DNA from: Jatrophihabitans sp.
GTDB taxonomy: Bacteria > Actinomycetota > Actinomycetes > Mycobacteriales > Jatrophihabitantaceae
Assembly: GCA_025924515.1 (NCBI GenBank)
Contig: JAICIE010000023.1
Span: 1-34,951 of the forward strand
Direction: 5' to 3'
DNA: 34,951 nt
The position numbers and the translations under genes were made by a program. Of the stretch, positions 447 to 12,180 are shown one piece after another. Within the stretch, counting starts at the first letter, position 1. Each line of letters opens with the position of its first letter. The notes beneath the pieces are model-generated. The model searched no databases and was not told the DNA's origin. It worked only from the letters and a program-made list of their open reading frames with translations.

Positions 447-470
447 CCTGCACTCCTGCCTCGACGACTT

Positions 471-486
471 TGTGAACGTCTTCACG
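471..486 (-). promoter_or_regulatory. Candidate Rex (redox-sensing repressor) operator
   Basis: The bases TGTGAACGTCTTCACG form a near-perfect inverted repeat (GTGAA-CGTC-TTCAC). They match the known Streptomyces Rex operator TGTGAAC...TTCACA in all conserved arm positions except the last base. The site lies between a possible -10 box (501-506, minus strand) and the start codon of the flavoprotein at 446, where a bound repressor would block transcription. Rex senses the NADH/NAD+ ratio. Confidence 0.6.
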
Positions 487-500
487 AGCCTTTCCGCTGC

Positions 501-506
501 AGTGTA
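501..506 (-). promoter_or_regulatory. Possible -10 box of the flavoprotein gene
   Basis: On the minus strand this reads TACACT, fitting TANNNT. Transcription would start at about 494, directly ahead of the Rex-like site. No good -35 hexamer is visible at the right distance, so the call is tentative. Confidence 0.3.
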
Positions 507-2867: not shown

Positions 2868-3923
2868 TCACCGGACCGCGACGCCGGCCCGCGCCCGGTC
2901 GAGGACGGCGTACGTCCGCCGCCCCATGAGCGCCGCGTCGAGCCGCTCGGACGCGCGGCGGTGTGCGCGCCCGCCCAGGACGCGGCGGCGCCGCGGGTCG
3001 GCCAGCAGCACGGCGAGAGCGTCGGCCAGAGCCGGAGCGTCCGCGGGCGGGACCACGACCGCGTCCTCCCCCACCGCGTGGGCGACCGCGCCAACGTCGG
3101 TGACCACGCACGGGCGCCCCTCGGCCATCGCCTCGAGGAGCGCGAGGGGCATGGACTCGCGCCGCGACGGGAGGCAGAACAGGTCGAGGTCGGCCAGGAA
3201 GGCGTGCGCGTCGCGGACGAATCCGCAGAAGTCGACGGGCAGCCCCTGCGCCGCGCACCGCAGGAGCGCTTCGTCGCGTCCGGCGCCGCCGATGACCACC
3301 TCCAGCGCGACACCTCGACCGACCAGGATCCGGACGGCGTCGATCAGGACGTCGAACCCTTTCTGGTCGGTCAACCGCCCGAGCGCGCCGATCCGCGGCA
3401 CCGCTCGGCGCGGGAGCGGGCGCGGCGCCGCCGGCACGTCGACCCCGTTCGGGACGACCTCGACCCGTTCCGCCGGGACCCCGAGTTCGGTCAGCAACTG
3501 CCGGCGGCCGTCGAGCGACGGCGTGAGGACGGCCGCCAGGCGTTGGTACAGCGCGGCCAGGCGCTCGCGTCGGGCACCGGTTCCGGTGTCCCCCGACAGG
3601 TGCAGCACTCCGACGGTCGGCGCAACGGCAAGCGCGGCCGCGAGCGCCGCCGCGTTGGAGCCGGGATCGACGAGATTGACCACGACGACGTCCGGGCGGG
3701 TGTCGGCGATGGCGCAGCGCAGTTCGGGCGCCGCGTCGCGATGCCGGGCGAGCGGCACGGTGGTTCCCGGCGTGAAGTCGGAGAACCCGGCCGCCACCGG
3801 CGCCGCGACCACGATCGACGGCGCCCAACCGTTCGGCTGCGCCCGACGCAGCAGGTGGGTGAGATAGACCTCCGCGCCGCCCCACGCGTCGGAGTCGACG
3901 ACGAACGTGACGCGCGAGCTCAC
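2868..3923 (-). CDS. GT4 family glycosyltransferase
   Basis: This 351-residue GT-B fold enzyme has an N-terminal acceptor domain with the GGAEVYL glycine motif (residues ~15-21) and a C-terminal nucleotide-sugar domain. The latter carries VPNGVD (158-162), GRLTDQKGFDVLIDA (182-196) and the retaining EX7E pair in RRESMPLALLEAMAEG (E256 and E264), followed by VVTDVGAVAH. It should transfer a sugar from an NDP-sugar to a growing lipid-linked or surface glycan at the cytoplasmic face. The start is a GTG at 3923; only a weak GC-rich ribosome site is seen. It diverges from the fused glycosyltransferase at 4040, with 116 bases between them that may hold a shared promoter region. Donor and acceptor cannot be read from the sequence. 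Confidence 0.9.
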   Translation of the reverse strand: MSSRVTFVVDSDAWGGAEVYLTHLLRRAQPNGWAPSIVVAAPVAAGFSDFTPGTTVPLARHRDAAPELRCAIADTRPDVVVVNLVDPGSNAAALAAALAVAPTVGVLHLSGDTGTGARRERLAALYQRLAAVLTPSLDGRRQLLTELGVPAERVEVVPNGVDVPAAPRPLPRRAVPRIGALGRLTDQKGFDVLIDAVRILVGRGVALEVVIGGAGRDEALLRCAAQGLPVDFCGFVRDAHAFLADLDLFCLPSRRESMPLALLEAMAEGRPCVVTDVGAVAHAVGEDAVVVPPADAPALADALAVLLADPRRRRVLGGRAHRRASERLDAALMGRRTYAVLDRARAGVAVR

Positions 3924-12152: not shown

Positions 12153-12180
12153 CGTCGATCAACGGAGTGAAGGAGTCCAC

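Follow-up and report, generated by a model that had tools for sequence, protein, structure and literature searches.

Control of respiratory complex I by the NADH-responsive repressor Rex is proven in Streptomyces. In S. avermitilis the rex-hem, nuo, and wblE genes are proven Rex targets, the published 18-base Rex motif is TTGTGAANNNNTTCACAA, the Rex operator (ROP) of nuoA1-N1 is placed at -42 to -16, and TTGTGACCTGCTTCACAT is the DNase-footprinted Rex operator of nuoA1 (PMC5355995). A second described system concerns gene order. In Actinomyces oris a geranylgeranyl-reductase-family (GGR) gene adjoins nuoA, with ubiE beside the ggr-nuo locus, and a transposon in the GGR gene gives the same class of defect as transposons in nuo genes (PMC5478893). 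The locus analyzed here is at one end of a 34,951-nucleotide stretch of Jatrophihabitans sp. DNA, referred to as the window in subsequent discussion. From motif matches and comparison with relatives, we predict with high confidence that positions 470 to 487 are an operator for Rex that controls the promoter of a GGR-nuoA-nuoB-nuoC(-...-nuoN) operon.

The 18-base form of the site, identified by motif match and conservation, is TCGTGAAGACGTTCACAA on the minus strand (487-470), with 1 mismatch among the 14 fixed positions of the published motif. On the plus strand the 16-base core (471-486) is TGTGAACGTCTTCACG and, as a sequence-only reading of the window had claimed, it departs from the Streptomyces 16-mer TGTGAACNNNTTCACA at the last base only. 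It is the sole one-mismatch match to the 16-mer in the 3.7-Mb assembly; all others found have two mismatches. The quality of the site is remarkable, but the number of loose matches within the window alone is not: there are five with three or fewer mismatches versus a mean of 2.09 in shuffled sequences, and 9 of 100 shuffles reach five. One weaker 16-mer match in the window is at 12166. A palindrome that arose by chance and has no function would fit this count, because loose matches in the window are no more than shuffles can yield.

The exact pattern GTGAA-N4-TTCAC is found at four places in the assembly (a control pattern is found at one). These are the 471-486 site, a position ahead of a WhiB-family gene, a position at a LacI-like gene, and a position inside an open frame (C77:10289), the last of which was rejected as a candidate. 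Rex-like arms GTGAAGCGGTTCAC and GTGAACCGCTTCAC (C6:26450, locus L156, and relatives G011 and G025) were set aside as operators of another regulator; they are beside LacI-family genes, a naming that is a reading of the protein starts. In two relatives (L160 and L170) these arms are paired 26 bases apart, a trap for Rex motif scans.

Conservation ahead of GGR is the decisive evidence that the site is real. The Jatrophihabitans genome was compared with 60 relatives, the set representing 37 genera and 16 families. The nuoA gene was found in 59 of the 61 genomes, and in 49 of the 61 GGR is within 2 kb upstream of nuoA, contiguously in 48 relatives and, in the Jatrophihabitans genome, counted across a gap between two contigs. 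The sequence-only reading had made the site depend on conservation ahead of orthologous genes. A site with two or fewer mismatches is kept in the 350 bases preceding the GGR match in 43 of these 49 operons, and in 31 of them it has one mismatch at most. When the same stretches were simulated with a first-order Markov model (300 sets), an average of 0.17 of 49 (maximum 2) had a site at two or fewer mismatches, and an average of 0.01 at one or fewer. With 43 operons against 0.17 expected, a functionless chance palindrome is hardly credible.

In the other six of the 49 operons, the site is between GGR and nuoA in three (G048, G050, and G057) and there is none in three (G006, G027, and G055). Two further genomes (G036 and G059) have a site before nuoA. 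The operator is thus at or inside the head of the nuo operon in 48 of the 59 genomes with nuoA. The control of complex I by Rex that is proven in Streptomyces would thereby reach 13 of the 16 related families in the set. The 11 genomes with no nuo site are G006, G009, G012, G014, G027, G029, G032, G035, G042, G054, and G055, among which the G012 locus is incomplete and uninformative. A rex gene over the Pfam cut-off is present in 57 of the 61 genomes. The four genomes that lack a clear Rex (G006, G029, G032, and G054) are all without the nuo site, compared with 7 of the 55 genomes that have Rex (Fisher p 0.0007, for species that are related rather than independent and with some assemblies incomplete). 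Rex-positive genomes in which both genes are in view and the site is absent are G009, G014, G027, G055, and G035, with the two genes on separate contigs in G035. G042 has Rex and nuoA and neither the site nor a nuo-linked GGR.

The reading also presupposed a rex gene in the genome, and one is present (C87:10180). Its product scores 342 bits versus the NCBIfam Rex cut-off of 226, an equivalog-level match, and also matches solved Rex structures. The hemA gene follows rex, and upstream is the two-mismatch site TTGGGAAAAGATTCACGA. A site with two or fewer mismatches was found ahead of rex in all five genomes looked at. A nearly perfect palindrome, CGCTCGTGAAAGTATTCACAAGCG, is at 3531 to 3554 of L155 (contig C217), upstream of a WhiB-family (wblE-like) gene from which its core is 75 bases away. 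This gene is a probable second Rex target because the layout recurs in six relatives. At seven of the eight loci scanned, a site is 70 to 92 bases ahead of the WhiB start; in G037 the start motif found no such gene. The sites ahead of rex-hemA and the WhiB-family gene resemble the rex-hemACD and wblE targets of Streptomyces (PMC5355995). In contrast to Streptomyces, in which cydA1 is a classic Rex target, no cydA was found in the Jatrophihabitans assembly, from which it is missing or in which it is unassembled.

Sites of the CRP/GlxR type (cAMP receptor family) have the consensus TGTGA-N6-TCACA, and if the palindrome were such a site, the operon would be under carbon control rather than redox control. 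The sequence at 471-486 does also fit GTGA-N6-TCAC. Furthermore, CRP-like sites are present in a relative (for example, GTGTGATTCAGATCACAGTG, which precedes a different gene in G009), and in three genomes of family f7 the motif before nuoA is instead TGTG-N5-AGCTCACAT. However, among the 40 distinct sites, in which the 4-base center is variable and the arms and the outer T...A are nearly fixed, the inner bases that separate the two motifs are A at one position in all 40 sites and T at the other in 39, and the outer bases are T in 39 and A in all 40. The pattern used to pick the sites rewards the inner bases and not the outer ones. Membership in the CRP/GlxR class, with its free inner bases, was rejected for sites in which the inner and outer A/T hardly vary. 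The same motif is also ahead of rex itself, it is absent from the genomes without a clear Rex, and its Streptomyces counterpart is footprinted by Rex (PMC5355995). A CRP-type site is a very improbable explanation, and Rex is the preferred regulator.

A different question is which gene the operator belongs to. One possibility is that only the flavoprotein, or else the acetyltransferase gene running divergently from 569, is under its control and that nuo has a promoter of its own. GGR adjoins the operator, the acetyltransferase starts 82 bases away on the other side, and the gap of about 85 bases between GGR and nuoA in this genome is compatible with a second promoter. The acetyltransferase is of the GNAT type and spans positions 569 to 1006 of the window. 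The gene on this other side varies among the relatives that were read, yet the site is constant.

Loci in which GGR and nuoA are differently arranged bear on this possibility. The loci examined were 80 named ones, the best 80 of 589 by GGR similarity, with 34 from Streptomycetaceae and 46 from other families. Among the Streptomycetaceae in these best 80 of 589, none of the 34 loci has a site ahead of GGR, and all 19 that reach nuoA have the site there; several of these sites are identical to TTGTGACCTGCTTCACAT. Among the other 46 in the best 80 of 589, no more than 300 bases separate the end of the GGR match from nuoA in 42. A site precedes GGR in 39 of these, and 2 of those 39 have one near nuoA as well. 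In the remaining four of these loci GGR and nuoA are further apart; three have a GGR site and three a nuoA site, two of them having both.

Genus g10 (G009 and G014; loci L095 and L096) is a natural uncoupling of GGR, nuoA, and the Rex site. There, GGR and nuoA are 6.5 to 7.2 kb apart and both are without a site, although rex and the WhiB site are retained. The intervening DNA includes a short frame pair resembling a PIN-type toxin-antitoxin. A protein with a start similar to that of the window acetyltransferase is encoded two genes from GGR in the same two genomes.

Because the site stays with nuoA where GGR is outside the operon, and because the g10 GGR, apart from nuoA, has no site, the operator appears to be nuo's own, with GGR controlled when it heads the operon. 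Service to the flavoprotein or the acetyltransferase alone is, on these grounds, very improbable. The proposal that redox state governs the flavoprotein consequently holds in part: GGR is under the operator by virtue of heading the operon, but the operator belongs to the nuo operon and not to the flavoprotein. Second nuoA copies had no site with two or fewer mismatches within 400 bases in any of seven genomes that also have a nuo operon with a Rex site (G034, G037, G038, G041, G056, G058, and G059), a count that leaves out the second copies in G028, G047, G049, and G053 and the third in G058.

The flavoprotein gene occupies positions 446 to 1 on the minus strand and, because contig C23 begins with the window, is cut after 148 amino acids. 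This N-terminal part of a GGR-family FAD protein (Pfam FAD_binding_3, TIGR02032), the putative first gene of GGR-nuoA-N, is 86% identical to an intact relative in G005. Its best NCBIfam match is TIGR02032 (geranylgeranyl reductase superfamily). The G005 orthologue, at 242.3 bits versus a cut-off of 158.8, belongs to that superfamily; the two Jatrophihabitans halves, being partial, individually fall short of the cut-off, with 105.7 and 132.7. The sole nuoA found in the assembly is on contig C171 (L113/L285). The remainder of a GGR gene fills the first 945 bases of this contig, and nuoA, nuoB, nuoC, and additional frames resembling complex I genes come after it. A search of the assembly at E 1e-20 gave a single N-terminal GGR half, and therefore the halves on C23 and C171 are very probably one gene. 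We infer the join rather than read it, because the halves are on two contigs of an incomplete (82.6%) assembly and the codons with which C171 opens are not an exact match to the last ones of GGR in the window; no read spans the gap. Comparison of positions 1 to 60 of the window with positions 1 to 60 of L113/L285 indicated that the two contigs break within GGR at almost one and the same codon but differ in sequence there, which would fit an interruption of the assembly by strain variation. In relatives the order GGR-nuoA-nuoB is contiguous. The sequence-only reading had expected a complex I operon to the left of the window, and the expectation is supported by the position of the window at a contig start, by C171, which resumes GGR at about the same codon and continues into nuoA-nuoB-nuoC, and by the contiguous relatives.

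The promoter layout is as compact as it is regular. The likely ATG of the flavoprotein is at 446-444, with a Shine-Dalgarno-like AGGAG six bases away (453-457, minus strand). A -10 element, TACACT, was read in the window at 506-501 on the minus strand, so that the operator is indeed located, as had been proposed, between this box and the start codon. All 43 operons with a GGR-side site have a TANACT box 16 to 23 bases upstream of the operator, at 19 to 21 bases in 38 of them, and the box is TAGACT in 30, TACACT in 12, and TAAACT in 1. By comparison, TA(G/C)ACT is found in 3.4% of comparable random stretches from the same regions. No conserved -35 box was seen by eye in the listed promoters. 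The module of TA(G/C)ACT, about 14 bases, and TCGTGAANNNNTTCACAA could be useful for annotating Rex regulons.

The spacing from the -10 element predicts a transcription start at 493-496 on the minus strand. Transcription would begin at about 495, 6 to 8 bases past TACACT, and the operator would then be at about +8 to +25. Bound Rex would then obstruct the escape of polymerase or its elongation; at the Streptomyces nuoA1 promoter, by contrast, it covers the -35 region. At a low NADH/NAD+ ratio Rex would be expected to bind and keep complex I low; at high NADH it would release the operator, and complex I and the GGR isoprenoid-tail reductase would be made together from a putative shared transcript.

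The menaquinone reductase MenJ of mycobacteria is in the same flavoprotein superfamily as GGR (PMC6305584, PMC9686282), and MenJ is the best-scoring named enzyme for GGR after the superfamily model. GGR is related to MenJ, but it is not MenJ by the equivalog model NF045655: the G005 orthologue scores 230.9 versus a cut-off of 700, and a protein over that cut-off is present in only 2 of the 61 genomes. In Geodermatophilaceae, in which the main quinone is MK-9(H4), a GGR-annotated protein has been taken as MenJ (PMC9686282). Six genomes of families f7 and f16 have a close MenJ (603 to 800 bits; G029, G038, G042, G050, G054, and G059). A nuo-linked GGR is kept in two of these six versus 47 of the 55 others (Fisher p 0.011, for what are perhaps just two independent losses), which suggests that GGR does the work of MenJ. 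The three f7 genomes (G029, G042, and G054; L138, L136, and L137) have in common a close MenJ, no nuo-linked GGR, and the TGTG-N5-AGCTCACAT motif, which is perhaps a CRP-type site.

A tentative extension, which we rate at somewhat below even chances, is that GGR is the local menaquinone reductase throughout this order of Actinobacteria and that Rex causes complex I and a quinone-finishing enzyme to be made together. If so, the saturation of the menaquinone tail would depend on the NADH switch that also governs complex I. An uncharacterized flavoprotein resembling a quinone-tail reductase is placed under a predicted Rex switch, so that what it does in the cell can be tested directly.

The regulation of nuo by Rex is already known; an operon headed by GGR, in which the operator comes shortly after the predicted start, is a variant of it. 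The GGR-headed nuo layout is common to many related bacteria. No report of this layout with a downstream operator was found in the open-licence literature, where an earlier one is possible, for example, in comparative work on the Rex regulon. Nor did that literature yield a report that treats geranylgeranyl reductase, Rex, and menaquinone together or one on the comparative genomics of the Rex regulon with nuo in Actinobacteria. The A. oris ggr-nuo locus shares the position of GGR next to nuoA and the nearby menaquinone genes; the available portion of PMC5478893 does not describe Rex control. The S. avermitilis nuoA1-N1 ROP shares the 18-base motif, the repressor family, and the complex I operon (PMC5355995). 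In the Streptomyces loci examined here, however, GGR is upstream and outside the operator, whereas in the window the operator precedes GGR. The position relative to transcription also differs, because the S. avermitilis operator is at -42 to -16 and the window operator is just downstream of the predicted start. Operators in such positions have precedents in Streptomyces: the published wblE operator, at +108 to +135, is also downstream of the start, and the cydA1 operator, at -3 to +25, occupies nearly the position that is predicted for the one in the window (PMC5355995).
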